DNA from: Protonemura montana
Taxonomy: Eukaryota; Arthropoda; Insecta; Plecoptera; Nemouridae
Assembly (NCBI GenBank): GCA_947568835.1
Contig: OX387607.1
Coordinates: forward strand, 8,875,201-8,939,200
Reading direction: 5' to 3'
DNA: 64,000 nucleotides
Shown here: one piece after another, positions 7,295-64,000 of the stretch
Layout: each line of letters begins with the position of its first letter
Position numbering within the stretch: the first letter of the stretch is position 1
The notes under the pieces: model-generated
Databases searched by the model: none
Told to the model about the DNA's origin: nothing
What the model saw: the letters and a program-made list of their open reading frames with translations, nothing else
Made by a program: the position numbers and the translations under genes

Positions 7295-7695
7295 CGTGAT
7301 ATCCCATATGGCCCTGTGGCATGAGTCCAACGAAGTCGGTGAATAAGTGGATGGTGATTAATGAGGAAGATGATGAACCTAACATAGCCTTCAATAAAGG
7401 AGGGAAAATTCGGTGCCGGCACGTAGCCTAATTCTGTCAAAGAGCTCCAAGAGGACCACCGGCTTAACGTCCCTTCCGAAGGACGGTAAAACGCGAACTA
7501 TAAGACTCCTCCACAAATCCATGGTGCCGAGAGGTTGAAAAGTAAAGCGAATGAAGTTGCTGTACTAACTTGCATCCCTCCAACCTCGCTCCCAAACAGA
7601 ACTGGCCATGTGTATGATGTTCATCCATCTAAAACACGACCCACTTTGGTGATCTCACGAGATCCGGTGTTTCCAACGCGCCAAATCATTCAGTG
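7295..7695 (-). mobile_element. 5S rRNA-derived SINE (family A), near full length
   Basis: Read on the minus strand, the element starts near 7695 with a GGTTTGG-like word and CGGATCTCGTGAGATCACC. This matches the 5S rRNA segment leading into the internal control region, although the A-box part is damaged here. The body carries ACCGTCCTTCGGAAGGGACG and TTAAGCCGGTGGTCC, then AGG-TACGTGCCGGCACC. The distal tail near 7300 has diverged and lacks the TCAA repeats. The 5S-derived head places it in the SINE3 class. Such elements have no protein of their own and depend on a partner LINE. Confidence 0.85.
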
Positions 7696-9479
7696 GAAGA
7701 CTTCGTTGTAAGTCGAGTTAATTGCAGAAATAATCAGCGACTATTTTAAAATAAGTAATCGCTCATACTGCTCGTCGTTAATTTTCTTCAAAGCACGAGC
7801 GCAGTTTGTGTTTTTCCCCTCGTACAGAGGAAACCGCAATGCAATTTGGAGTGTAGAGTCCGCACAGTAATTTGTCCACAAGACGTTCCTCGTAGTGCGC
7901 CAATAAGTCGCGGCGTCGACCTCTCTGCGACGGAGAGCCTCGGAGAGCAAGGAGACAGTATGATTGATGGGACTCCGCTACCCGACGAAGAATGTCGTCC
8001 CCGGCTCGGAAAAGTTATGTTTGAGTGTTGACATCGTGTCTGAATTTGTTCGCCCTAACTTACACAACTCATCCGTGGGGAGAGGTAAAAAAAAAACGAA
8101 AAGAAAGTAGGATGACGGGAAAGAAGTAACGCGTTCCTCCTTGAGGAGCCATTTCGCTGTTTTCTTTGCAACATCAAAGTAACTTGTAGCATTGTTAAGG
8201 CAGCTAGACAGGACATTTATGATCGAGTCCATATGTCCTGACTGAATTCTTTCGCAGGAAGCTTACGTGAAGTTTTGCGTAAACGGCTCACCGGGGAGGA
8301 TTGCGATATTGGAGCGCTGGCAAGAAATGCGATCTTCAAGAGTATTTTTTGTGCTTTGAATAAGGTGAGTTTCTGCATCCAAACCGGTTCATGTTCATTC
8401 AATATTTTAATAACTTCACAAGGGTGCGATAGCAATTAAAACATTGACGGTTGATTACTCCATATGAAAGGTATTTTTATTACCAAGTGTATGATTAGAT
8501 TTGCAGAATGTAGTACAAAATACACGAACATTTTCGATTGTGGTAAATTAATTTGTACCCGCGTGTGGAATGGAATGTTTTGAAAGGTGGTTATGCAAAT
8601 TTGCTCGCTATTTGAGTGCACTGAAATATTATTAAATGCAATGCATTCACACCATTACCGTGGTTGAAAAAGCGTCAAGGGTGTGGTGAAACTTAGCGTT
8701 GGACTTATTTCATAATAAAATAAAAACCCGCCACCACATAAGTTCACCGGTACATTTCTAACACTAATTTTATGTTTTCTGAATTGCTTTGAGAGCGGAT
8801 GAATAACTTAAAACTCTTTTTGGATTTTTCTAAAGGTTTTTGAAAGATCTGACGATAATTCTTCGCTGAAAACCCGTTTGTAAGTGTTTTCTTGACTGAC
8901 GAAAATCTTTCTTGATCTTGAATTTCAAAATCAAAATAAAGTCTGATCTCATTTCTCGACTTTCTTTTTGGCTAAAAGTTCGTTTGAGGTTTTTAAGACT
9001 TCTTTTAAAAACTACCAAATGTTATAAGGGTCTACAAAATCTCCTTTGTGGCCAGTCTTTCCAATACACTTATAACTAATAGAGTTTTACCCAATCCTAG
9101 GTGCGTTGACGTTAAGCGTAGTATTTTTTCTTGTGCTAGGATACAGGTAAATTCAAAAACGCTAAGAGAGCAGAAGGAAAATAGGCTCGGAAATGTAACT
9201 TATATCAAGAAAAAAAAAAAAAAAATTGTCGCTATATTTATGTTGTACGCTTATGTAATGTCAATGTAATGTTATGTTATGTATGCTTATCAAATGTGTA
9301 AAAAAGAAATATTTATTGAAATTTCTACCTCTTTAATCATAAATAAAAATAAAGTGAATAAGAAAAAGCAAATTTTACCGTGCCATGTTGTTAACGTACC
9401 CAAGGTAACTTTAAATTTTCGTCAGCACTAAGGTAAAACCAAAATCTCTGCGTTCCAAAACATTTTGTTCGTAATTTCT
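7696..9479. other. Non-coding; one mildly protein-like minus-strand frame
   Basis: A minus-strand frame at 7741-7950, bounded upstream by a TAG near 7975, translates to about 69 residues of ordinary amino-acid mix. It matches no family I know, and the opposite strand is open too, so it is recorded only as a weak candidate. The rest is AT-rich. A 16-nt poly-A lies at 9210-9225. Confidence 0.45.
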
Positions 9480-9823
9480 TAGCCTCGTTAGGTCAGCGGC
9501 AAGCCATTAAGAATACTTAGTGCACTACCCGGCCAGCCACTTCAGCTCAGCAGCGGTAGCTTGTAGCTGATCCTAGCCTGTGAGAGTTTCGAAGTAGCCG
9601 CTTTGCAAAACCGCGACCCAACACTTTCAGAGACTCGTGTCTATGTGCTCAGCAAGCGAGGCGCGATGGCGTAGTCTGTCCACGTGAACACTTCCAACGC
9701 AGCGTCGGTCTCATGCAAGACTTTGTTTGAATACACCACGGCACGACGTCGCGACGCCGACACGAAGTAGAGACTTGCCGAAGACGAAAAGCCGGTTATG
9801 GAATTTGGTTATGGTACAGTGAA
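9480..9823 (+). other. Candidate first exon (GC-rich leader plus short coding start)
   Basis: A GC-rich block in AT-rich surroundings ends at a strong donor, GAA|GTAAGT (intron start 9824). An ATG at 9799, with a purine at -3 and G at +4, opens a frame of eight codons (MEFGYGTV) that runs into the donor in phase 2. The frame is closed upstream by a TAG 30 bases before the ATG. This is the layout of a 5' UTR with a start codon close to the first splice site. There is no recognisable promoter, and the peptide is too short to identify. It may equally be a conserved non-coding island. Confidence 0.25.
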
Positions 9824-10240
9824 GTAAGTTCCGTGTGCACATGGAGGTTTTTGTGCGGTTTTCCTACTGCACACAATGCACATGACGGATATATATATAT
9901 ATGGAGTACATCTTCAAGAGTATTTTCAAGATCCTAGAGAGGAATTGACTGGAATGTGAAAGTAAGATAATAAGTCAGGCAGTAGGTTTCTGTGTGGAAT
10001 ACTGTTCGTGCAAAGCTCGTGGATAAATGAGACTAACGGGCTTTTGGAAGAATTTATGCACCAAAATTTATGACACAATATGACACTCATTTGTAGAAAT
10101 GTTTGTAGTATGAAAAGTAAGTGGAAAATGGTGTCATGTACGTGTGTCAAAGAAGCGACTTAAGTTCTCACAAAAGTGTTGCCCACTGGATGTGATATTC
10201 TTGAGAAAGTCGAAAATAAACTGAACTGTCAAATAAACTA
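9824..10240. other. No gene recognised; short (AT)n
   Basis: An (AT)n microsatellite occupies 9889-9902. The remaining sequence has no recognisable element and would be intronic if the 9480-9823 block is an exon. Confidence 0.5.
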
Positions 10241-10635
10241 TGGCACAGTTTTGAAAATAGACTTGTGGCTTTGGTCTGATGGCGTCGTAGAATTAGTGCG
10301 TGGTAATGAGAGTGATGATGAACCTTATCTAGTGTAGATTGGAGAAGGGAAAACCCGGTGCTAAAATTTAGCCTTGGGAACATCATCGAGTGGACCATTG
10401 GCCTAGCGTACCTTCCGAAAGTGCTAGAATAGAATTATTCGACAAATCAATGCTGTCAAGAGGTTGATAAGCAAGGAGTAAACTTTCTTCAATCCCTTCA
10501 ACCTCTCTCCAAAAGAAAACTGATCATGAGTACATTGGTCACTCATCCAACACATGACCCAACGCAGTGCTGCTTAACTTCAGCGATCTCACGAGAACCG
10601 GTGTTTTTAACACGCCAAACCGCTCGATAAAGTGT
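10241..10635 (-). mobile_element. 5S rRNA-derived SINE (family A), near full length, diverged
   Basis: The minus-strand reading begins near 10635 with CGGTTTGGCGTG, then CACCGGTTCTCGTGAGATCG and GAAGTTAAGCAGCACTGCG. This preserves the 5S internal control region. The body retains the CAACCTCT word and a weakened core. The tail is cut short of the TCAA repeat. Divergence from the copy at 38279-38720 is clear by eye, so this is an old insertion. Confidence 0.85.
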
Positions 10636-11189
10636 GACCAAAAAGAGGCTTCCCAATCCAGGCCAAATTCCCCTTTTTCTGAGTCTTATCCCATTTCCCT
10701 TCCTCTATTTGTTTCGCTATGGCGTCTTGTTTACAGGTATTATTCTGATTGCTCATAAAGCAGTCCTTTCCTCTTGCTTATACAGAATTGCTCCTGAAGG
10801 ATGCTCTCACACAAACAGGATACTTTCTCAGTTTCAAACTCCCGGAATTATCCCAGCACGCCTTTCACATCGAGTGTGTTATATTTCCCGCCTAACGGAA
10901 GCTAATGCCATTGTTGGTCGCTAGCACTTGCCGTTCTTGGGAGGTGTTCGCAGGAGACAACTCCCATTGAAAGTGGCGTTTCGCAGCAAGTTTAGCGCAA
11001 GTATAATAATGCTTGCAAGCCTGCGAACAGCATAATAGAGGCCGACGTGAAGCTAACGGCGAGAAGTAAAGCTTGACGACACTATGTTCATACACTTGGT
11101 TGTCGATGCGAATTTTGTATCAGTATGAAATCGCTGAACATATTTTATTTTAACTTACCAATTGTTTATTGATTGATTAGGGAGGTTTA
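10636..11189. other. No gene recognised
   Basis: A plus-strand frame of 96 codons at 10634-10924 and a minus-strand frame of 67 codons at 10892-11095 show no domain. A GC-richer patch lies at about 10900-11070. Nothing else is seen. Confidence 0.5.
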
Positions 11190-11565
11190 AAAACAACCTG
11201 TTTTGACAATGGTTTTGACAATGGCACTGATTTAATGGTGTCGACGGAAAAGCGGATGATGATGAACCTAATCTAGCCTAGAAGGGAGAAGAGAAAACCC
11301 GTGGTTCCGGCACGTAGCCAACTCGAACCAAAGATCACCAAGGAGACAATTCGAGAAAAACAGGATTCCTGCACAAATACATGCTGTTGAGATAACTATC
11401 AGTAATGAAATTGAGCTGTTGTACTAAGTTTCATCCCTCCAATCTTCTCCTGAACAGAACTGGTAATGTGCTTGATGGTCACCCATATAATATCTGACCC
11501 AGCGCAGTGTTGCCAAACTCGGTGATCTCACGAGAACCGGTGTGACCAAAACGTTAAACACGCCG
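11190..11565 (-). mobile_element. 5S rRNA-derived SINE (family A) with internal deletion
   Basis: The head is well kept: CCGGTTCTCGTGAGATCACC, GAGTTTGGCAACACTGCGCT, then TATGGGTGACCATCA. These correspond to the 5S A box, intermediate element and C box. The CCTTCGG...GACGTTAAGCC core seen in other copies is missing or scrambled between about 11345 and 11365. The body downstream resumes with TACGTGCCGGAACC and CTTCTAGGCTAGATTAGG. The tail has a small duplication of TTTTGACAATG near 11201-11225. Confidence 0.85.
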
Positions 11566-13866
11566 GTAATTGTTTTTTTTTTAAATTAATTAAAACGGTC
11601 AAATAAATAGTAACAAGCAAATGTTGTTAGTAAATAGGTTAAAGGTCAATGAGAAACATTTTGAGCAACAAAAACTTGCCCTGGGGAAAATCTCCTTGAA
11701 AAATAAATGTTACCTCTAAAAATAGTCCACGAATTTAGGTGACACATTGGCAAAGAAAATCTAGCAACTTTTTTCCAGCAAACTTCAGATACAGCGACCA
11801 ACTTTTGTCCGACTCTCTTCTGCCCAAAGTTTTTTCCAATTACAGGGTTGATCAGTTTTAAAATTTTAAACAAAATTGCGGCAGATCTTCATAGATAAAA
11901 AGTTTATAGAATACGTTAAACTTTAACCGATTCTGTATATTTGATTGAAAGTTGTTTCATAAGAGCTTTCAACGAATATTAGATTATCAAAAATGTTTTT
12001 ACGAGCTAGGCACAAATGAGACAACTTCAAATAAAACATTATATTCAAACCAATCGCAAACCCCTCTACTCCGTGCACCTTAATACAATTTTTTCCGGTA
12101 GAGGCAGCACTGGTCGTCTTGGGGTGCCATGCGGGCCGACTGTCATTAAAAAAAATACACATATAATATATATATATATATATATATAATTCAAAGCCGC
12201 TAATGTCCACCATTTCTATTTTACTCTAAAGCTTTTGTCGTTCCTAGATTTTGTTTTCAAGCTATTATCGGAATTTTTCTAGCAGCTACAACAATATTGG
12301 GAATTATTGAGCAAATGTAAATATTATTTTAAAATTCCACCACTATTGTCATAACTAATTGAATTAATGAGTAAAATTTAGCTACGTTCAGGGCAGTGCC
12401 TTCGGTTAGTAAATTCTCTCGCGGGCTAGACTGTATATTTTATAACCACTAAAATCTCAAAATAGAAAAATGCAAACTACCTGTCAGTAATACATCAGCC
12501 TTGCTATATAACAAAAAAATCTATCAACAACCCTTATCCATTTACCTGCCACCCTCCTCCCAACCTGTCCAACACATCCTATTAAAGATTAATGCAAATA
12601 TCGATACCATTTTCGACTGCCGCAAGGCGCTGAAAGCAATTCACCCTGTGCTCACTTCCGGTGGACGGCCATGTGATTCTAAGGCTCGGTAACGCGACTC
12701 TTCCAACCACAAAGTCCACAGCGTTGGAGACGTTGCCAGCGCCGTCGGCGTTGGCCTGCACAGTGCTGGACGCTGGAGCCACTAAGTTTCGGTTTGGATG
12801 AGCTAGCCTCCTGGGATTGACCTTATTTCACATGAAATGATATTGAGTTTGGAATGGGTTTTCCAGGGAATGACCGTAGAGAAACAAAGTCTATGTCCTG
12901 AGGAACGATGAGTGGGTACAGTAATTTATACCATGTACAAAGTTTGCCTCGAATAACCTAGTTGAAGTATTTTTCCCATTCAAGCTACGTTTTGTTCTCG
13001 TGCCACGGTAACGACTAGCGTGGGTTGTGCTTGCTGCAATCTCTATTGAAAAACCAATGAAAAACCATTTCTATAACGTAACTGAGTGTTCGCAGACCAT
13101 CTTGATCTTACATTTGTAAATAAAATGAAGCCAGAAAATTTGGTTGCCATAGTTTCCGCTTATCAACGTAATATATATTTTTTTAATTCTTGTCTTAAGT
13201 GCGAAGGTTCATGTACAATATTTCAGCCGAGTTTTTACGCTATTAGAGTTCTTTGAGCTGAAGAGTAGATCATGGTTATGTTGATTTATAAGTATTAAGA
13301 TGCAGGATCCACGAAGCAGAGTTAAGCTTGATCCCCATTTGGTTGGGGGTCAAGTCACTTTCATCATGTTTACAACACATCCACATTTGGAAACATCTTC
13401 TGTTATTATTCTTTTAATGACCATCTTAAAGGTCCAAGGTTAAACTTAAGATCTGTTGTCGATCCAGCCCAAGACAAGTTCTTATACACTTTACCTTTAA
13501 ATAGTAAGAAATAAATGCCTTTTTACTTACACTTTAAAATTTGTATTTTTTATAAATATATTTTTATTTGTTTCCACGTCAAAAATACTATATGATACTC
13601 TATGATACTATATTGGTGGGTAAAAATATTTTCACAAACCACACTCCTCACCATATATAGATGAAAATCGTCATCTATTTCTAATTCAGAACTCAGAAAA
13701 ACACCTGTGGTCAAACTTAGACATCAATTAAAGCATTTCGCTCCCTTTTCTCGCAATGCCTCGACATTCACTTTATCTTATTTACACCGGTCATCACTCA
13801 TCTACCCTCCAAGTCACGTGTCACCGAGCCCCTCCTCCCCGGACCCGTGTAAAGACGGTCCTTTCT
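11566..13866. other. Non-coding; (AT)n microsatellite and AT-rich DNA
   Basis: An (AT)n tract occupies 12161-12189. A GC-richer patch at 12600-12790 has overlapping short open frames on both strands and no domain. A repeated word (ATACTATATGATACTCTATGA-like) lies around 13585-13615. Nothing else is seen. Confidence 0.5.
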
Positions 13867-16800: not shown

Positions 16801-17149
16801 ATTTGACGGGAATGCATATTTTATTTTTAATCAACCGTGCGCTCGCCCAAGTTTTTGGAAACCTCGCCTCGCGTATTCCGGGCCCCAGAGCACATGCCTG
16901 TCGAAGTCACCCGTCAAACTCGATATTTCAACCACAGACCCGTGCGAAGATAAATGCGTTGTGCGTGTGGCGGGTTTTGGTGCGAAACATGCGTGAAACG
17001 TGTGGAATAGAGCCTTGGGCTTTTGGCTAGACATGTGTTACGCGCAGATCCACTTGAAGACCGGAGTTTTCTGGTAGGGTTTTGTGTGAAAGAAGGATTG
17101 ACACGCTTGATCATAAAGGCTTTGAAAAAAATCAAGCAGTGTAACCCAC
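13883..17149. other. Non-coding, scattered short open frames
   Basis: GC-richer patches at 14030-14290 and 14690-14930 alternate with AT-rich DNA. Open frames reach 98 codons at most and look random, often overlapping on both strands. No repeat copy or splice-bounded coding block was identified. Confidence 0.5.
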
Positions 17150-17591
17150 CGACCGGTATAGGTGTGTTCAAAACACCGGTTCTCGTGAGATCACTGAAGT
17201 TAAACAACACTGAACTGCATCAGGTATTGGATGGGTACACTTCATATGCATGACCAGTTCTGTTTGGGAGAGAGGTTGCAGGGATTTAAGTTAGTTCAGC
17301 AACTTTATTCGCCTTGCGTATCAACCTCTCGACAGCATGGATTTGTGGAGGAATACCGTTGTTTGCGTTGTACCATACTTTGCAAAGGAAGGAAAGCCGG
17401 TGGTCTTTTTGGTGCCCTTCGACAGGAGTACGCTACGTGCCGGAAATGGGTGTTCATATCCTTTCTAGGCTAGTAAAGGTTCATCAGAGTTGTCGTTATG
17501 ACCCACGCATACACCGGCGCCATCATACTAGTGTCACAGGTACCGTTATCAAACATTGCGTCGTGAAGCCCCACAAATCAATAAATCAAAC
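17150..17591 (+). mobile_element. 5S rRNA-derived SINE (family A), full length
   Basis: The head runs ACACCGGTTCTCGTGAGATC, ACTGAAGTTAAACAACACTG, then AGGTATTGGATGGGTACAC. In order, these match the 5S rRNA region that contains the A box, intermediate element and C box. Next come a CAACCTCTCGACAGCATGG middle, TGTGGAGGAATACCGTTG and a degraded core. The end is CCCCACAAATCAATAAATCAAAC, a TCAA-type tail. About 440 bp, both ends present. Short open frames across it are incidental. Confidence 0.92.
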
Positions 17592-25063: not shown

Positions 25064-25396
25064 ACCGAATGGTTTGGCTAGTTGGGAACACCGATATTCC
25101 TGAGATCACCGAAGGTAAGAGTCAGGCATTGGTTGGGTGACCATCATACGTGATGATCAGTTTTATTCTTGAAATTAAAGTTAGTACCTACAACTTGGTT
25201 ATCATCCTCGTGACAGCAATAGGCTTGTGGAGGAATCCTGTTGTTCGAGTTATACCGTCCTTCGGGAGGTCCATTTGGTGAACTTTGAAAGGAGTAAACA
25301 ACTTGCCATTACTACGTTAATCCATCTTCCTTCTAGACTAGGTTTAATTCATCATCACCCACTCATTCACCAACGCCAATATAATGATTAAAAGAC
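25064..25396 (+). mobile_element. 5S rRNA-derived SINE (family A), diverged
   Basis: The head is eroded but readable: TGAGATCACCGAAGGTAAG, CAGGCATTGGTTGGGTGACC, ATCATACGTGATGATCAG. The body keeps TTGTGGAGGAATCCTGTTG, ACCGTCCTTCGGGAGG and CTTCTAGACTAGGTTTAATT, then the CATCATCACCCACTCATTCA stretch. The final CGTTAAACACC and TCAA tail are lost. The GACGTTAAGCCGG part of the core is deleted. Confidence 0.85.
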
Positions 25397-29227: not shown

Positions 29228-29280
29228 ATGAAACTTCAATGATCTCACGAAAACCTATGTCTCTAAACATTCGATGAAAA
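29228..29280 (-). mobile_element. Fragment of the 5S-derived SINE head (family A)
   Basis: On the minus strand TCATCGAATGTTTAGAGACA, TAGGTTTTCGTGAGATCATT and GAAGTTTCA correspond to the first 50 or so bases of the other copies. Nothing downstream matches, so it is a head-only remnant. Confidence 0.6.
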
Positions 29281-31045: not shown

Positions 31046-33164
31046 TTAAAAAAACCATTACAATGAAATGATTACGACACAAAATATCAATACATCAATC
31101 GTTTATGTTGGCATTGAGTCAGATTAGTTTTGCGTCAAACAGTTTCAAATGCGAGATAAAACGAAATAAAAATTCTAAACACTCAAAACGACGGCGGATC
31201 CATCTAGTAGCATCCTTAATTTTTGTTGGTAAAGTAGTCATTAGACGGCAATTTTTCGTGATAATACCTCAATGATAGAACCAAATTTAGAACACATTTA
31301 CAATGAAATACATAATTAATGGCTTAACATAGGCTTTAGACGCGCAATTACAAGGATTGCCCATCGTTTGATAAACCGTTGATTGTGAATAGAGGCTATA
31401 AAGTCTAACATTGCGTAGCTTGGCATGGAGTTGTCGTAAAACCATTTGCCTGGTCTGCCATATACTATTTAATATATACTAGACTAGTATGGTAATAATA
31501 CCATGACGGGGTTAGCTTGAATTTGACATGGCCAGGTTTTGACAACATGCCATGTGGAATAATTGTCCCACTTGTTTACCTATTGTTGTACAACGCTGAC
31601 ATGATAGTCCCCAATTTAATCATTTGTGTTTATTATTTCAACAACTTCACTCCCAATTCCCGCTTAGTCGTGGTTTTATACCCATATATATATGTTATAA
31701 CTGCTGGTATTAATTTATTGCGATTGTAAAAGTAACAATGCCAATCAAGGCATTATTTTTGTGTTACGAGAACTATTTGGAAACAAAAATACTGTGCATC
31801 ATTACAAAACTTAACAAGAATACAACGGGAAAAAGAAATGATTGTTTGCAGAATTTTAAGAAAGATAACCTATTTTATTCAAATCTTACTTTACTGGTTA
31901 GAAAAATTAAGTTGTTTATTTACTTTGTACACAATTTTTTTTTCTTTTTGCCTCTTTTGACTTGAATATCTTAAAACGATTTTCTATAAAGTCTTTTAGA
32001 ACTCCTTGTAAATATAACGAACTTGTCTTCGTACTTCAGTACAAATAATTCAGCACATTTTGCGAAAGCACGACTCATTCTAATAGCAGAATCATGACAG
32101 CATATCACCAAATCCAGGAGATAAATCAAATTACGAGCTGTGACGTTGGATTACGTGGAGCAAAGGCATCAGACAGAACTATGATGTGTTGTCCGATCCA
32201 GAGATGATGGTTATTTTGTCAGCAGCCCCGAGCGGTGAGCGCGATCGATCTCGTCCGTCCACCGGACATCGTGGTACGCCCGAGCTTGTCTCGAAAAGCG
32301 ACGGACTAGAGTTCCACAAGGGAGTTTCACAATTTAGCTTTCCACTCTAGATCGGATATACCTACCTAGGTAGTAACTATGTTATTGCTTTGTACGGTGG
32401 GCCTATTTCATGTGTGAAATATAATATCACGTGCACTCTAAATCAAGCGATTTGTTTTAAAATACCTCTTTCTTGTACTTCGCTTTAAATGGCAAGACTC
32501 TTTTTCGAAAATGGTTCGTTTGAACTTATTCAGCCACTTACTCGGGGGTCTAAAAGCTTGAGTGCTGAGAGTAAAGAGTCGAAACGAAATTAAGGGCATG
32601 GATAGGAAGTGAAAAATTACAATTTTCAGGAACATTTCTCTCACAATTTCATCACACTCGAAAGACGTGGTTTTATGAGTACGAGTGGAAAAGTGTAATG
32701 GAGGTTTTTGTTTCTTGATTTCCCTAACAGTGAAACAAAACAAAACAAAACTTGCAGTCGATATCTACAAAATATTCTGGCATACCAGTTAGATTTAAAA
32801 ATAAACAAAAAAAAATTAAAACACAATTATCGCTAAAATCTGGTTTCTAAAGCAGCGAGACATTCAATTAACAAAAAAAAACTTTACTAGAGTCAATTAT
32901 TAGAAAGTTAAAGCGTATTTTACTGGCTGCCCCAGTGCGACCTAGGTGTGCACCGGGGGCGATCTGCGTTCTGCGCGTGACTCTACCCCAGTGCAACTTC
33001 TACATGTTCGAGCTCGCTCTCGGGTCACTTCCAGTGTACCAGTGTACCTACATTTCTTTCCCCTAAAATTACGATGGTGTAATTGGAAAAAGAATGCACT
33101 AACAGCTAGTGATCACATGCTAAGGAAAGGCCCTCACTCGAAGCCGGTGCACACCCGCAGTGCA
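31046..33164. other. Non-coding; GC-rich island at 32215-32340
   Basis: Mostly AT-rich. The island at 32215-32340 contains GCGCGATCGATCTCG and CCGTCCACCGGACATCG. The first GC-rich part of the 32930-33060 block follows. No protein-like frame was found. The largest frame is 101 codons at 32438-32743(-), AT-driven. Confidence 0.45.
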
Positions 33165-33172: not shown

Positions 33173-34282
33173 TTGAGCTAGTTTCAAACCCGCACAGGCG
33201 CGGGTCAATTTCAAGCCTGATAGTATCTAAATAAGTACACGAAATCAGTAACGAAGGGGCTAGAATTCAATTTGTCTTCAATCCACAAAATTAAGAATTG
33301 CGTTACTTGCTTGACAAAAGTTCCGTAAAGTTTTCGCGTGCGGTTTCTTAGCTCGTACCTAATGAACGGGTGCTTCACTTTCGTCGTCATGTGGTAATCA
33401 AAAGGTAGACCTGACCTCCACCATGAGCTCAAGGCCGTTACGAATTCGAAGATTGCATTCGAAGTTTGGCCGTGCACCAATTACATGCAAAAAAAGTGTG
33501 GTTTGGGCAACAAACAGAAGAAAAACTTAACACCACTTCATGTTTTTTTCAGATTTGTCTCAAGTTTGTCTTAAAACTTAAACTTAAACTTATTTCGTTA
33601 TTCGAAATATTTAACTTTGCACGTACTACTATAGCGCTAATGTTAAACTGTTCTTGCAAAAAAATAACTGCCAGATCGCTACTTTGCGACAAAAACTGAG
33701 AAGCTACTACCTAAGTGAAGTCGTTGTCGTTTCGAGTGTTAAGAACTTTAATTTTTTTATTTCTCGCAGATTACTCACACTTGATACTAATTTACTATCA
33801 ATTCACCTTTGTTACCTCAATAATTGATAAATATATATCGAAATTTGAAAAGTTATTATTTTCTTGTAAAGGTTTGTTAAAAAGGACGCCCGCTGGCACG
33901 ATCAGGTGGTATTCACCCTGTCCACATGTTGCCGGTTCGTCTCCTAAGAAAAATATATACAATAACGCTGAACCTCTTACTAAACATTTAAACTCAACGC
34001 TTGATATGTAGTTCTATGAAAATATAGATGCCAAGAAATGTTTAACATTTCAAACGATTAAAAAAAAACCTAGCCAAATAGCCAATACAGTCTCGTTTCC
34101 TCTACAACTCGAGTAAGCAATCATTTCTGCGGATTCCCTAAGCTGTATCATAGCTTTGAACCATAATCTCAGCAGTACCAGACGTAAGATGCCTACACAA
34201 GACAGCCAAGTATCACCCGAGACCACCGTATCACTCATCACAGCGCATGTCAACTGAAATGCGCACCAGTCTAGCATGTTTC
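33173..34282. other. Non-coding, nothing recognised
   Basis: AT-rich DNA with unsupported open frames of up to 98 codons. Confidence 0.5.
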
Positions 34283-34347: not shown

Positions 34348-35696
34348 TGAGTCTGCAATAACATAGCAAATCACGCCTAGGATTCGAAATCAGCAAAGCC
34401 GCTTAGGTCGATCGAAGGGGAGTACTTTGAAAAGGGATCCTTTCGTATATCAATATCTGTTTTTGGACTTAGCTGGCGTCGTTTAACGTTGCCCGTTGTA
34501 CTTTCGGGATGGTGCAGGGAGGTGTCAGCAGTCGAGCGGTAGGCTGTCTAACAAATTGAATGAAATAGGCGAGACATGGTTGTTAGAGCAAATGGGGTTT
34601 CGTGGCGCTACAACTCTTCTCTGCGTCTTGACGTTGGAGTTTAAAGAGCGTGCGTTCGATAAAGTGTGTAGGACTTACAGAAAGTATTCGCTAAGTTATC
34701 TTTCTTTGGGTGTACTTTCGGCATTGTGCTGAAATAAAAATAAAACAAAATGGTGACGAAAAAAGGGGTAGGAAACTCTTTTATTGACCAAATACATTTT
34801 CTGTATGAATATTAACGAACTCTGGTTCTCCAGAAGGAAACTCTTTGGTCTTCTAGTTAGAGACATGTGATTTGCACCATTAGAATGACTACACAACCAA
34901 ATAAATTTGTTTTCTTAATTTGGATTCTTTTAATTGGAATGATTTTAAGCTTGAGAGTCGTTAATATGATTTCAGCCGGCATTTCTGAAGCGGAAAGCCA
35001 ACTGGTGAAAATGTTATTAAAATATTCGAAAATTGAAAATAACAATTTGAAGAACCTACTTAAATGGCATATTCAGTAAACAAAACTCTGATCAATCATC
35101 TAATTGGCTTAAGAATCAGGAAAAACAGCTTTGCCCCTCTCAATACGGCAATATTCAATAACTGTTGCCGGAAACATTTATGTCGAAACTTTTCGTGCAG
35201 AACGGAATTGTCGATTCATAATACGGCCACCGTATGTTCCCTTTCGGCACGTTTTGCCTCAATCGAGCTCGCTTTGTAAGATCTCATCGTTCCAAAAGCC
35301 ATGCTCGTTCTTAGTTCCATGGTATTAGAGATTTGAGCAGTTCACAGTCCAAACGGGAGAAAGTTTACTAATTACTAAAACTTAGTCTCAATAAAATAAC
35401 CAGACCTTCTGACATTTTCATAAATATCTTAGTTGAGTGAAAAACAAGCGTTCAAGGCAATGCTTGTCCGTTTCTCAGTGATTCCTTCACATAATTACTA
35501 AGGCTTTACTTTGCTGGAAGCTTTCTGTGCCAGGTCCTACCAATTTATATCTATTTTAGTTGAGAAGTTAAATTGAGCAGATTAACCCCATGTATAAAGT
35601 TAAGCAATGTTGTAATAAAAAAGCACAGCTTGAATATTAAATTTTAAAATATGATAAAATATTGTGGAATAAATCGTAAGATATTTGACACACCCT
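34348..35696. other. Non-coding, nothing recognised
   Basis: AT-rich with unsupported open frames of up to 78 codons. Confidence 0.5.
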
Positions 35697-35902
35697 ATGG
35701 AAAGGACGTTAAGCCGGTGGTCCCCTTGGTGCTCTTTGACAGGAGTAGGCTACGTGCCAGCACCGAGTTTCCCCTTCTCCCTTCTAGGCTAGTTTAGATT
35801 CATCATCATCCACTCATTCAACCGACGCCATTAGATCAGTGCCGCATGACCAGGTGTCAAAACAGTGCGTCGTTAAACACCACAAATCAATCAATCAATC
35901 AA
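35697..35902 (+). mobile_element. 5'-truncated 5S-derived SINE (family A)
   Basis: Only the 3' half is present, but it is well preserved. It starts at GGAAAGGACGTTAAGCCGG and continues through GGCTACGTGCCAGCACCGAG, CTTCTAGGCTAGTTTAGATT and CATCATCATCCACTCATTCA. It ends GTCGTTAAACACCACAAATC and three TCAA units. 5' truncation with an intact 3' end is what incomplete LINE-driven reverse transcription produces. This is one of the best copies for defining the tail. Confidence 0.92.
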
Positions 35903-37606: not shown

Positions 37607-38278
37607 GCTGTCTTATTTTAATCTTGCAGTCTTAGACGGCGTTCGTCAACAGCGAAGATGCCATTAGAACGTAGATAACGGAAGCACACTTTTGAGTTTT
37701 TACTGCTCAAAAAGAAACTATCTGGGTAGTGACATTCCATTACCTTTGTTTCTAGGTTTTAACTGCATCATCTCCATTAGTATTACGACAGAGCTATGTA
37801 AAAATAAGTCCCGTCGGAGTATTTCATAACGTCAAACGCAACTTTTATTCAAACATGCGTAGAGCTTTTGATGAAAATAAAACAACGACTACACACATGA
37901 AAAGGTAATAGTCATACATGAAAATGGTTCTAAAATGTAGCAGAAACAGCAGTGACAATGTACTGAAGCATATGATAATACCCACATAGTATCACGCATT
38001 AGTTTCGTGATGATTACGGGCATGAATTTTAACACCAGCATGCGTGTGTATGTGTGTGATATGCATAACTGTGTGGATGGAATGCTGGCACGGCGAAATA
38101 ATTACTCTCGCGTCGACCGCCATGTTAATATGATTCTGTGTCGAAACGGGTGGACGACGCCCACACCGCGGACGCTTTTCATGCCGATGGCGTCGGGAAA
38201 TCGTGACGAAAGGGTACTGAAATGCGCTTCAAATAGTTGGTAGGTTGGATATTTTCTCATTTTTAGCTAAACGATTTC
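37607..38278. other. No gene recognised
   Basis: AT-rich. A short (TG)-rich stretch lies at about 38040-38060, and a GC-richer patch at 38100-38210. Confidence 0.5.
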
Positions 38279-38720
38279 TTGGTTGATTTGTGGTGTTTAA
38301 CGAGGCACTGTTTTAAAGACTGGCCCTACGGCACTGGTCTAAAGGCGTCGGTGAATGAGTGGATGATGATGAGAATGATAATGAACCTAACATAGCCTAG
38401 AAGGGAGGAGGGGAAACCCGGTGCCGGCACGTAGCCTACTCCTGTCGAAGAACACCAAGAGGACCGCCGGCTTAACGTTCCTTTCGAAGGACGGTACAAC
38501 TCAAACAGTAGGATTCCTCCACAAACCCATGCTGTCGAGAGGTTGATAAGCAAGGCGAGTGAAGTTGCTGTACTAACTTTCATCCCTCCAACCTCTCTCC
38601 CGAACAGAACTGGTCATGTGTATGATGGTCGCCCACACAATTCCTGACTCAGCGCAGTGTTGCTTAACTGCGGTGATCTCATGAGAACTGGTGTTTCCAA
38701 CACACCAAACCGTTCGGTAA
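38279..38720 (-). mobile_element. 5S rRNA-derived SINE (family A), full length reference copy
   Basis: Read on the minus strand, it runs from CGAACGGTTTGGTGTGTTGG through CACCAGTTCTCATGAGATCA and CCGCAGTTAAGCAACACTG, then GTGTGGGCGACCATCATACA. The middle has CAACCTCTCGACAGCATGGG. The body has ACCGTCCTTCGAAAGGAACG, TTAAGCCGGCGGTCC and GTGCCGGCACCGGGTTTCCC. The tail is CGTTAAACACCACAAATCAA. All sections are present, so it is a good reference for the family. No coding capacity. Confidence 0.94.
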
Positions 38721-39804
38721 CGATTTCTTGCTGGGGAGATGTTCCTCCAAAAGCACACTGATATTTACAACAAGAAAAATTTGTTTCACTGATTTATGTA
38801 AGGCTTCGTAATGCTACACAAATATTAGTAACGAAACTTCAATTTCAAGGAATTGAAAAAATACACATTTAATGCGTTTTTTTTTTTGCTTGCGGAAAGA
38901 CCTCGTGATCGCATTTGACAAATTAAATCAGATAACCCAAATAAGTTTTCTCCATTTGATTGGCATCCCGGTATAGACAAACGACTTTCATTGCGTTATT
39001 TTGCCTACAAATAAAAAATAAATAAATAGCCACAAATGTTTTTGAGACTCGGCATACAAGTCCATGTTATCGATTTATATCTTCAACTTAATTACTTACT
39101 CATTACAACCATCGTGTCTTGATGAGTGTGCAAGCAGCTCAAGTTGTACGGTTTATTATTGCACTTTGAATCTGTATACAAAATGCAGAAAAAGCCAATA
39201 AAAAGTTAGATTACTTTGCAAGCGAGTCCACCATTTCCTGGCTGGAACGAAATTTCATCAATCCACGCAGTGTTCCATAATGGCAGCCTCAAAATGTTCC
39301 GCATTCGACGTTCGGGCGCGACATGAATAATTCACAGATTTTATAATATTTAACCTAGATATTCGCGTAACGAATCAATCATGCGGTGGGCTAAAAACAA
39401 AATTGCAGCACCGGCAGCCGATTCGATCCCGTGCTACATACCTATATAAACATATATATGTATATATGTATTTATGAATGATATGTCACTTGTTTTCACA
39501 TTCCATAATCGACGTTGATCAAAATGTCAATAGCAAAAAGGCAAAAAGAAAACATTATTCGGTGTGTGTAATTTCATAAAACTTGCAAAACTTCAGGGCA
39601 ATGGTGGGCAGTCAATGCGCATTGGATTTCAAAGCGAACTGGAATGACATGAAAATAAATGAGGTTAATCTGTGATAAATAAAACGCAAACACAGGTCAT
39701 GCACAAACGGTTACTTTTTTTCCACTGTCCGAGTCTGGTATTGGATCCATCCAATACTAGTTTCGGTGCAATGTAAAAAAATAAAAACGGTTAAAAGGCA
39801 TTTA
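38721..39804. other. Non-coding; ATATGT simple repeat
   Basis: An (ATATGT)-like tract lies at about 39450-39470. The rest is AT-rich without recognisable elements. Confidence 0.5.
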
Positions 39805-40166
39805 TCAGGTAATCATTGCACACATTACCGGTTCTGTTAGGGAGACAGGTTGGACTTACGGTGAGACGAAAGTTATTGCAGAAACTTTTTGTCTTCCTCA
39901 TCAACTTCCTTGTGGAGATATCCTTTTGTTAGCGTTTTACCGTCCTTCGGAAGAGACGTTAATCCGGTAGTTCTCTTGGTTGTTTTTGATACGGCTACGT
40001 GACGACACTGACTTTCTCCTTCTAACTTCTAGGCTAGGTAAGGTTAATTATCGTCCTCCAGTCACTCATCGACGACTTAAGACCAGTGCCGTAGACAAAA
40101 GTTGTCAAAGTTGTCTTAGTTGTCAAGCCAGTGCGACGTTTAATACCTCAAATCAATCAATCAAGC
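39805..40166 (+). mobile_element. 5S-derived SINE (family A) lacking most of the head
   Basis: The match begins inside the 5S-like head (TCAGGTAATCATTGCACACA) and continues through GGTTCTGTTAGGGAGACAGG and TTGTGGAGATATCC. The core is well kept (ACCGTCCTTCGGAAGAGACG, TTAATCCGGTAG). The end is GCGACGTTTAATACCTCAAA and TCAATCAATCAA. The tail contains a local duplication of AGTTGTC units near 40100-40130. A 100-codon open frame over it is incidental. Confidence 0.88.
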
Positions 40167-55419: not shown

Positions 55420-57186
55420 TAAAGACCATGTTCAAGTATTACAATATCCGCATAAAAAGATAACGTGTGGCTAAGATGAAAATTTAACTTTCTGATTGCC
55501 TGGGACAATGGAGATGAGTTTTTAACTGGCAGATATCGTTTAATCGATCCAATGTAATTTTGCTTGAATTCTTAAATTTACTAACAAAATTGGCTCTCTA
55601 ATTTACTACTTAATCCTGCCCTCGCCTCAATTTCCCACCCGATCTCTATCAGACAACAACTCATGATAACCAACCTATACGCTCGTTTTTCACGTGGATA
55701 TTCGCTCGCCGTAAGCTTTGAGAGGGACTTTAGCCCCGACCAAACTGCCCCCTTGTGCTTCGCCACGGCAGCGAGTCACCTGGTTCACCAATAAACTTTG
55801 CGTCTTGCATACGGTCATAAACAGGTAATCCCGACACACGCTAATCCCTGGCGAACTTTGCGACCATCTACTATCTCGATACATCAGGCAGGGTCAAGCA
55901 GTTGGGACCTTGCTGACATACGTTTCGCCAAGGCTTGTCAGCGCCCTTTGTCTACAATAACCATTGAAATTAACAGATTTAAGTCAGAATTTCAACGCTA
56001 ATAGTAAACTATCTTCTCAAAAATATCAAGCAATCAACTAATTTATCGACTAGTAATTGCTAGTAGGTGGAGTCACCGTCGCTTATATTTCTTAGCTCCC
56101 ACCACGGATAGATTCAGTTAAGGAAAACCAGCTCTCAAAATAAAGAGTGTGGTTATATGTAAAAAAAAGTCCTTGTGTTTTGTAAATAAAACTTTACCTT
56201 ACTTCGGAAACCTTCTTCACGACATTTCCATATATTGCTGTAGGCAGTTAAAACGTATTTCCAATGTTGATAGTTTAATTTTTCCTTATCATGATGGAAG
56301 TTACTACGGCATATTTATATTTTTATAAAAAATAACATCATTTTTTCAATTCAGTAAACAAAAAGAAGGCAAAAGCATGAATCAACAGAGTAGGATTGCA
56401 TTACGTGAATGTACCTACTTGCATTACGGTACAGTGTTGTACAAAAAGCTTGCTTAAGTTTTTATAAAAAAAAAACCGAATTGACAATAACACCTGCATG
56501 GTAATTGTAAAACAGCTTTAAATGGTGCAAATTCAACATGTGGCATCTAAAACAAGTCTTTGACAAGAAACAGCGACAAGAAACCAGCGAATATATTAAT
56601 ACATCTGGATGGAAAATTCAGCTGCCTGCAGAGAACATCGTAGAGCACATTAAACTTTAGTGGCAAATGGGGAAATGTAATTTCGTCCAACAAAGGCTGC
56701 GCCCGAGGCGCTAAGGAAACCTGGAATATAGAGAAACGTTTCTTGATCTTCAAGAGGACTGCATGGGACCTAACAATAATTTAGTTATTAACTTTGAATT
56801 AACTACTAACTACAGCCAAGGGTCGCATGACAGCCGGCGACACTTCAAAAGATGCTGATATTTGAAGCGGAATTCTTGTAATCTCACTCTCATGTGATGG
56901 GTAATTTCATGTAATTTGGGAGCATCTTGGTGCTTTAGACACACGTTTCAAAGTCAAACATGAGATGATTTGTAATTATTTTGTGTTTAAATACACGTTC
57001 TGAACACGAATTTGCTTGTGAAGACGGTACTCCAGAACGGTATTTTCATCTTAAGAGAGCGTTATGTACACAAATACAAGAGAAATAAGAGAAGTTGTAG
57101 TAATTATTTATTTGATTTCGATGGCTTTGAGGTCTTTAACTACGCACAGTTTTCACAACGCGCCCCTTGGCAAATGGTGTCATTAT
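55420..57186. other. Non-coding, nothing recognised
   Basis: AT-rich with a slightly GC-richer part at 55620-55960. No recognisable product or repeat. Confidence 0.5.
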
Positions 57187-57480
57187 GTCGGTTTAGTGGA
57201 TAAGGTAGAAGATGAATGTTACCTATAAGATGCCTATAAGGGTGTAGGGGAATTTCGTTGACGGCACGCAAGCCCATGCCGTAGTCAGCCTGGATAACTA
57301 AACGTATCCAAGTTGTTGAATGATTGATAAACAAGATGATGTACGCTATTTCTAACTATATTTTAACTTCTGATTCTAACGGGAGATAAGTAGGATGGTC
57401 GCCCAGCCAGTTCCTGATCCAAGGTAATGTTGCTTAACTTCGTTGATTTTCCGAGAAGTGTTTCAACTTTCAACACGCCT
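57187..57480 (-). mobile_element. Old 5S-derived SINE copy (family A), first of a tandem pair
   Basis: The minus strand begins GGCGTGTTGAAAG and keeps CAACGAAGTTAAGCAACATT and CTGGCTGGGCGACCATCCTA, the 5S A-box and C-box region. Further on GGTTTTGATAA-type middle words are eroded. The body shows GGCATGGGCTTGCGTGCCG in the position of the GCCGGCACC block, and it ends at CTTATCCACTAAACCGAC. The CTTCGG core is deleted. It is much more diverged than the 38279-38720 copy. Confidence 0.7.
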
Positions 57481-57485
57481 TACGA

Positions 57486-57714
57486 GGATTCTGATTTACC
57501 CATTAAAGTCTACAAGAGAGGTTGAAAAATAAGGTTCCAGTAGGCACTTCTACCAAAGTCAACCAGGATTCCTCAACAGATGCACGTTAACCACTGATTT
57601 CTGTAACTCCAAATAAAACTGGAGATAAGTAGGAATAGTACCCCATCCAGTATCTGACTCAGGACAATGTTACTTAACTTCGTCGAACGTTTGAGAAGTT
57701 TTTTAAGTTCCCGC
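57486..57714 (-). mobile_element. Old 5S-derived SINE copy (family A), 3'-truncated
   Basis: The minus strand carries ACGAAGTTAAGTAACATTGT and CTGAGTCAGATACTGGATGG, again the 5S control region. TCCAGTTTTATTTGGAG and CAACCTCTCTTGTAGACTTT follow. It stops after the AATCC word that precedes the core. It abuts the previous copy head to tail within about 5 bp. The two share CTTATCTCCAGTTT/CTTATCTCCCGTT wording not seen elsewhere, so they may be a distinct subfamily or one duplicated insertion. Confidence 0.7.
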
Positions 57715-62769: not shown

Positions 62770-63640
62770 TTGACGAGTTCGCGATGAGCAAATATTAACT
62801 CGTAATATAAAATGTAATCATATTATTGGAGAAAAGTGCGCCATGGCAAACAGAATATAGATATATATATTTTTTATACGTAAAGCGAGATTGAAAAGCC
62901 GTTGACTTTTCACATTACCGGAATGGATTCGAAAACTCGAGTGTGTCGCATTCGGAAGCGCGTTTAAAATAACCGACTTTTTAAAATGTAGCTTTCTCGT
63001 TCTGCTCTCGGGGTTTTCTACTAGCATTTCAAGTCTTTTCATTCGATTCAAATATTCATGAAGAACTTAGCATTTTGCATATCTTGCATTCAACTAAATA
63101 CTAAAGATGAGGAAATCAGAAGACGATCGTTGAGATGTGAAGGTGTGATAGATACGTGATGTGGAATTCTCAAGAAGCAAATTATTTGCATTTTTTTGCT
63201 TGCTGACTTTTTTTTTTCGTCATTCGTTGTGAATTTTTAATGGAAATCAATTGACAAAGCAAGAATTACAAGGACAAGCATCTTGCTTCCGAGTCTTAAA
63301 ACTAAGCAACTATTACTACACAACCAACACAAGGCGCATAGCGTTCAAGACAAACAAAAATATTTTAAATTCCCAGTGTTCCGTTTTCACGTCAAGCAAT
63401 CACAGATAATTATTTTAACAAACATGGTGAACGCTGCACAAATGATCTTGGCTGACTGACGAAGTGGGAAGTTGTAGAGTGCCCTGTTTTTAGATTATAT
63501 GTCCGCACAGGTGATCAAAAATCATTACTATCGGACTGCTTCTTTATGGAATTAATCAACGAGTAAAATTAAACATAAAATGTTGTGTCAATCTTCTATA
63601 CACATGTGATATAATTCAAAATAACCTCAAATGTAGTCGT
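62770..63640. other. AT-rich, nothing recognised
   Basis: No open frame above 77 codons and no repeat copy. Confidence 0.5.
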
Positions 63641-63710
63641 ATTTATTTGTGGTGTTTAACGACGCACTGTTTTGACATCTGGCTATGCGGGACTGGTCTA
63701 ATGGCGTCGG
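63641..63710 (-). mobile_element. Tail-only fragment of the 5S-derived SINE (family A)
   Basis: On the minus strand CCGACGCCATTAGACCAGTC, then GCCAGATGTCAAAACAGTGC and GTCGTTAAACACCACAAAT matches the extreme 3' end of the family, with the tail reduced to AAATAAAT. Only about 70 bp were retained, an extreme 5' truncation. The sequence is almost identical to the inferred consensus, so it may be one of the younger insertions. Confidence 0.88.
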
Positions 63711-64000
63711 TTTAAATGTAGTCTTGACAGCAGAGTCAAAACGTTCGTTCCATATCGCAAGATTCGTTATTCAAGACGGCCGGGACCGTTAAATTCGTTT
63801 TTTCTCTACGTTCATGCTTATGCTTTTGCTTACTACTATGTCAAATTTTGGGTTATCGACATCAGATTTTGGTAAGTGAATGGATGTTAATTGAAGTTTT
63901 TCATTCTATACTTCACGCATATCCATGTCCAATGTTAATTAATTTGTGGTTTTGAGTCAGTACATGAAAGCTCGATTAGTTCATAGATGTTGAAAACCGA
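63711..64000. other. No gene recognised
   Basis: AT-rich to the window end. Nothing seen. Confidence 0.5.

Follow-up and report, generated by a model that had tools for sequence, protein, structure and literature searches.

A 5S rRNA-headed repeat family, probably a SINE3-class retroposon, in thousands of copies in the genome of the plecopteran Protonemura montana

SINE3 elements, which begin with a head derived from 5S rRNA, are described as less abundant than SINE2 elements and as occurring in vertebrates and some insects, where they are mobilised with CR1, I and RTE elements as partners (PMC7245038). This agrees with the first-pass annotation of the locus studied here, which had called 5S-headed SINEs rarer than tRNA-headed ones. 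The vertebrate members, in zebrafish and its relatives, are transposed by LINEs of the CR1 clade (PMC7245038). The class itself is already known from insects, a beetle and moths among them, and few insect families are named in the papers cited here (PMC7245038, PMC3272025, PMC8010984). SINE3-1_TC of Tribolium castaneum is seemingly mobilised by the I clade (PMC7245038). In Lepidoptera, HaSE3, PxSE4, PxSE5 and related elements share with the element described below a 5S-derived head followed by a body; some of the lepidopteran families have a LINE-like 3' end and some are flanked by target-site duplications (PMC3272025, PMC8010984). HaSE3 differs from the present element in its RTE-type 3' end (PMC7245038, PMC3272025). 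It has been suggested that a promoter of the 5S type is weak or silent once it has been retroposed (PMC3272025, PMC8010984). A 5S-derived promoter is also found in the Ajax and Cassandra TRIMs, but these are LTR elements (PMC10886601). All of these descriptions follow the available portions of the papers cited, and our comparisons with the Tribolium, lepidopteran and vertebrate families are comparisons of descriptions rather than of sequences.

The family described here was recognised in a 64,000-nucleotide stretch of the P. montana genome (the window) and followed through the whole assembly. It is in all probability (about 93%) an insect retroposon of the SINE3 class that carries a 5S head; its 3' end would be copied by a LINE, and it would depend on both RNA polymerase III and this LINE. 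The family has a composite structure, thousands of copies on the two strands, target-site duplications, nested insertions, a young subfamily of near-identical copies and a difference in tail between young and old copies. The 5S-derived head of about 120 bases most likely acts as an internal type-1 RNA polymerase III promoter, and the transcript would consist of this head, a body unrelated to it and a 3' end recognised by a LINE-encoded reverse transcriptase. Copying at a nicked target, presumably by target-primed reverse transcription, would then give rise to the target-site duplications and the short tandem tail. The partner may perhaps be an I-type LINE bearing RNase H, as discussed below. 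The family may be either a new member of SINE3 or one already catalogued. No matching family could be recognised among the titles and abstract openings listed for SINE3 and 5S-derived SINEs, those of arthropods, crustaceans, bryozoans, Hymenoptera and beetles included, and four consensus words of 17 to 27 bases are absent from 5.39 million papers, in which such sequences are seldom printed; absence from the literature is no proof of novelty.

Copies in the window were located with a profile HMM whose training set of 45 copies was drawn from the genome (37) and from the window itself (8), so that the window matches arise partly by construction. At E<=0.01 the profile gave 14 rows on both strands, which together span 3,593 of the 64,000 nucleotides (5.6%); the reversed window gave no row. 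With the copy named in the first-pass annotation as query, BLAST found 12 further pieces at E<=1e-3, and SINE coverage by BLAST came to 4.93%. When up to three mismatches are allowed, the window contains four matches to a 27-base body word, and 100 shuffles contain none. The annotation had reported copies in both orientations making up several percent of the window, which holds on both points. Its figure of at least twelve copies or fragments is reached when separate pieces or a weak fragment are counted; the clear places number 11, to which a weak head fragment and a weak piece beside a broken copy may be added.

The copy that the annotation had placed at 17150..17591 is a full-length old copy on the forward strand (profile E 9.7e-130), and it starts at 17148 instead. 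This copy, at 17148..17591, is made up of a 5S-derived head at about 17149-17268, a body, the 3' end and a TCAATAAATCAA tail. It is 80% identical to the young consensus, and a search for an exact target-site duplication around it found none. The other full-length copy, at 38274..38718 on the reverse strand (E 6.4e-159), is at 93% identity the closest to the young consensus among the full-length copies of the window. Of four matches to the Rfam 5S model in the window at E<=1, the one in this copy (38598-38718, reverse strand; 58.5 bits, E 1.1e-09) is the only one above the gathering score of 38, while those at 10522-10628 (32.5 bits), 17149-17268 (30.5 bits) and 11447-11567 (25.7 bits) fall below it. 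Apart from 5S, the same scan (evalue mode, E<=1) gave nothing in the window except one SCARNA7 match.

The remaining copies are incomplete or more diverged. On the reverse strand, the copy at 7300..7693 lacks the 3' end (profile positions 2-407, E 2.8e-115), that at 10243..10626 lacks the end of the tail (3-414, E 2e-97), and that at 11164..11562 is diverged and nearly full, with a ATCAATCAATAA tail (6-445, E 3.8e-86). A diverged copy on the forward strand at 25064..25382 also has no 3' end (1-380, E 5.1e-70). Two 5'-truncated copies with (TCAA)n tails lie on the forward strand at 35693..35900 (228-446, E 3.9e-63) and 39797..40165 (75-445, E 3.5e-73). A third, at 63634..63712 on the reverse strand, is a 3' end only with a AATAAATA tail (366-444, E 3.1e-18) and shows 94% identity over 69 bases. 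The broken, diverged copy at 57125..57480 (reverse strand) falls into two pieces, 57125-57276 (281-433, E 1.6e-15) and 57291-57480 (12-209, E 8.2e-17), and is adjoined on the same strand by a weak body fragment at 57482..57566 (261-350, E 0.0033). Reverse-strand head sequence is found at 57609..57696 as a diverged fragment (33-119, E 2.7e-09) and possibly, as a weak match, at 29230..29266 (E 0.008). A second dispersed repeat, at 33637-33814 and 31121-31256, gives no match to the SINE profile in the window; it is likewise present in the genomic loci L070, L031, L023, L034, L004 and L022.

The checks proposed in the annotation, namely a consensus, a copy count and a measure of divergence, bear the family out. 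The consensus is 445 nt long with its tail, an element of about 430 bases plus the tail. With up to three mismatches allowed, a 27-base core of the body is matched 11,947 times in the genome (5,973 forward and 5,974 reverse) and never in the control. Since no more than 4 of the 11 clear places in the window have this core, copies and fragments together exceed this number, and scaling from the window puts them at roughly 30,000. The genome share, estimated from the SINE bases per core match, is about 2.5 to 4.3% of 258 Mb. The two rates are about 930 bases per match, from the window and six random 10-kb stretches, and about 545, from the flanks of fetched SINEs, a set biased to SINE-rich places. 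The six random stretches (60,000 bases) contain 97 SINE bases by BLAST or 120 by profile and no core match against 2.8 expected, so that either SINE density is uneven or the sample was unlucky. Pairwise divergence among 33 young copies has a median of 1.4% and a minimum of 0. Since 30 of the 33 are best matches to one young copy, the set shows that a young subfamily exists and not the average age of the family, which looks recently active. PxSE4 and PxSE5 are given as 4,415 and 1,952 copies in PMC8010984; the core matches in the present genome number 11,947 or more, though the counts were made differently. With about 12,000 copies or more that can be detected, and with young members that are nearly identical, the family would form a counter-example, in a genome of 258 Mb, to the idea of silent or weak 5S promoters. 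A copy number this high in a SINE with a 5S head, together with the change of tail, is the part that deserves a second look. The exact 24-base core is absent from the viral and prokaryote contigs searched, which says little because neither set includes insect genomes.

Host 5S rRNA genes for comparison with the head were obtained with Rfam, where the 47 that were scored and listed, from 52,711 candidates, all lie above the cut-off. Over the full length of both, the head of the young consensus aligns with the 5S gene of L039, and 85 of the 115 aligned positions are identical (74%). The alignment score is 88, and 200 shuffles reach 16 at most. Judged from this alignment, the head descends from 5S rRNA, as the annotation had claimed. 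The best-kept segments are consensus positions 17-61 and 79-92, each 93% identical to the gene. We take positions 50-60 to be box A, 67-72 the intermediate element and 80-92 the box C region; with these coordinates, the young consensus agrees with the gene at 11 of 11, 3 of 6 and 12 of 13 positions, respectively. Head positions 45-97, taken as a whole, match the gene no better than the remaining head positions do (40/53 vs 45/66, p 0.42) and give no evidence that the promoter as a whole is conserved or under selection. An internal TTTT at consensus position 268, within the body, is carried by 29 of 37 copies. It could terminate RNA polymerase III and places a question mark over transcription by this enzyme.

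Exact target-site duplications of 7 to 15 bp (median 12) flank 28 of 37 copies; the other 9 lack an exact one, several of them showing imperfect duplications by eye. The copies in L014 and L034 sit inside older copies of the same family, and in both of these cases, the two that were tried, removal of the element and one duplication yields a profile match that spans the junction. Truncation was tabulated for 71 profile matches (E<=1e-5) from 53 sources, with 5S-gene loci and duplicates left out. All 36 central copies selected by the search are complete. The 35 matches not selected in this way comprise 8 complete copies, 7 with the 5' end only, 7 with the 3' end only, 10 with neither and 3 at a locus edge. 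Two of the 3'-end-only matches are halves of interrupted copies and one is part of the broken copy, and the possible true 5' truncations are four (35693, 39797 and 63634 in the window, and L025). This small sample of 35 gives no sign of the excess of 5' truncations that LINE-type insertion typically leaves, and the case for such insertion therefore rests on the duplications, the tails, the nesting and the structure. A separate arrangement is seen at L021:732-1113 (reverse strand), where four partial heads (profile about 49-144) are spaced about 91 bases apart and connect with a longer piece of the SINE at 450-736; this tandem array apparently grew from a SINE head.

The copies might instead be dispersed 5S rRNA pseudogenes, retroposed or duplicated, as a head alignable to the full 5S gene could suggest. 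Against this, 44 complete copies (the search had selected 36 of these) have the 5S part joined to one and the same body and 3' end of about 310 bases, and young copies lie only about 1.4% apart while their consensus is just 74% identical to the gene. We consider pseudogenes highly improbable and have rejected them on the shared structure. Equally improbable is a TRIM-like or other LTR-type element that has taken up 5S sequence, for which Cassandra and Ajax, with 5S sequence in their LTRs, provide the precedent (PMC10886601, in its available part). Unlike these elements, the present consensus has no direct repeat, self-comparison at E<=1 returning only inverted matches of 9 to 10 bases; the target-site duplications vary from 7 to 15 bp, against 5 bp in Ajax (PMC10886601), and a short repeat in tandem forms the 3' end. 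These features contradict an LTR-type origin. A tRNA-derived head, as in SINE2, was likewise rejected: ARAGORN finds no tRNA in either the window or the consensus.

With a SINE3-class retroposon as the preferred reading, the next question concerns the LINE from which its 3' end may have been taken. RNase H is a mark of I-type LINEs, and the domain is present in L079 and L080, two of ten loci (L075-L084), among 150 matches listed, whose stretches downstream of the reverse transcriptase were compared with the SINE ends. The tested span after the stop was 200 bases in one comparison and 400 in the other, and the elements in L075, L081 and L084 may actually end beyond the tested bases. None of the ten stretches shares a convincing 3' end with the SINE, and with 20 comparisons made no LINE end stands out. 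It is possible, and we lean somewhat against it, that the 3' end derives from a host I-type LINE, as has been proposed for the beetle SINE3-1_TC. L080 ends in GCGCCGTTAAGCCCCA and the old SINE in GCGTCGTGAAGCCCCA, each preceded by a short complementary stem. On the other hand, the score of L080 with the old tail is also attained in 19 of 2,000 shuffles that keep the mononucleotide composition and in 38 of 1,000 that keep the dinucleotide composition; among 144 genome pieces of 400 bases taken at random, about 1% attain it, and the likeness to the young tail is weaker still (166 of 2,000 and 151 of 1,000 shuffles). L079, which is related to L080, has no match to the SINE end above chance, while other LINEs score with the young tail, namely L083 (score 29, 15 of 1,000 shuffles), whose C-terminal part has no Pfam match, and L077 (score 22, 38 of 1,000). 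An I-type LINE stays a lead because the I clade is described as the apparent mobiliser of SINE3-1_TC (PMC7245038). The LINE copies themselves are numerous and near-identical (e.g., L079 and L080), with open frames of about 1,240 to 1,260 codons uninterrupted by stops, and non-LTR retrotransposition in this host looks recent.

The tails differ with the age of the copies. Each of the 33 copies with 98% or more identity to the young consensus has an AAT-type repeat tail, that of L002 reading ATT and that of L004 being short. Thirty of them were retrieved with an AAT-tailed query; L002, L004 and L007 were retrieved with a TCAA-tailed window copy, yet are AAT-type as well. Among 19 distinct copies below 96% identity that retain the 3' end, tails read by eye are TCAA in 12, AAT in 1 (L033, at 93.1% identity) and otherwise A+T-rich in 6. 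In the window, TCAA is found in the tail of five of the six copies listed with a 3' end. The (TCAA)n tail reported for the family in the annotation is thus that of the older copies and does not extend to the youngest subfamily. Copies near 95% identity have mixed tails such as TCAATAAATAAA or AATAAATAAATCAA, so that the change of tail is graded. The words ACACCACAAATAATAATAAT and CCACAAATCAATCAATCAA have 765 and 252 exact matches in the genome and none in the control, figures that are not copy counts, as the two words are of unequal length and tails decay with age. In L070, a solitary match to the tail has no LINE-like open frame beside it and is probably a very short SINE fragment or a chance match. 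A bolder reading, which we think unlikely, is that of a highly successful insect 5S-headed SINE whose tail passed from TCAA through AATA-like mixtures to AAT, possibly as it followed or switched its LINE partner. If true, this would contradict the published idea that SINEs are at a disadvantage with type-1 (5S) promoters, and it would provide a natural series for the study of tail change and copy number. The old and young tails together would allow one to test whether a change of LINE partner accompanied the burst.

The host assembly comprises 258 Mb in 34 contigs, 11 of which appear chromosome-sized. The 7tm_6 odorant-receptor family, which is insect-specific, has 129 matches in it and is found in none of 14 control genomes, and the host histone H2B is identical at 121 of 123 residues to chain 6pwe_D, which we take to be fly histone H2B. 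Together with the TTAGG arrays described below, these findings identify the host as an insect. Several arrangements of 5S genes were seen alongside the SINE. At L042-L068 (G000:C11:70-105743), 5S genes lie three per unit and in both orientations in repeated units of about 9.5 kb; a histone 3' stem-loop is present within this array in L043, L046 and L061, together with an H2B frame in L061, and the whole is a 5S-histone linked array. In L040 (G000:C15, about 8741), 5S genes adjoin long TTAGG telomere-type arrays near the contig end. Next to the 5S gene of L039, at 1780-2100, there is a tandem array of a tRNA-like unit of about 54 bases (TAGCTCAATTGGTTAGAGC...GGGGTTCAA). Finally, a tRNA-like B box (GTTCGATTCCC) on the reverse strand of L070, within 9151-10000, possibly belongs to another, tRNA-headed repeat.
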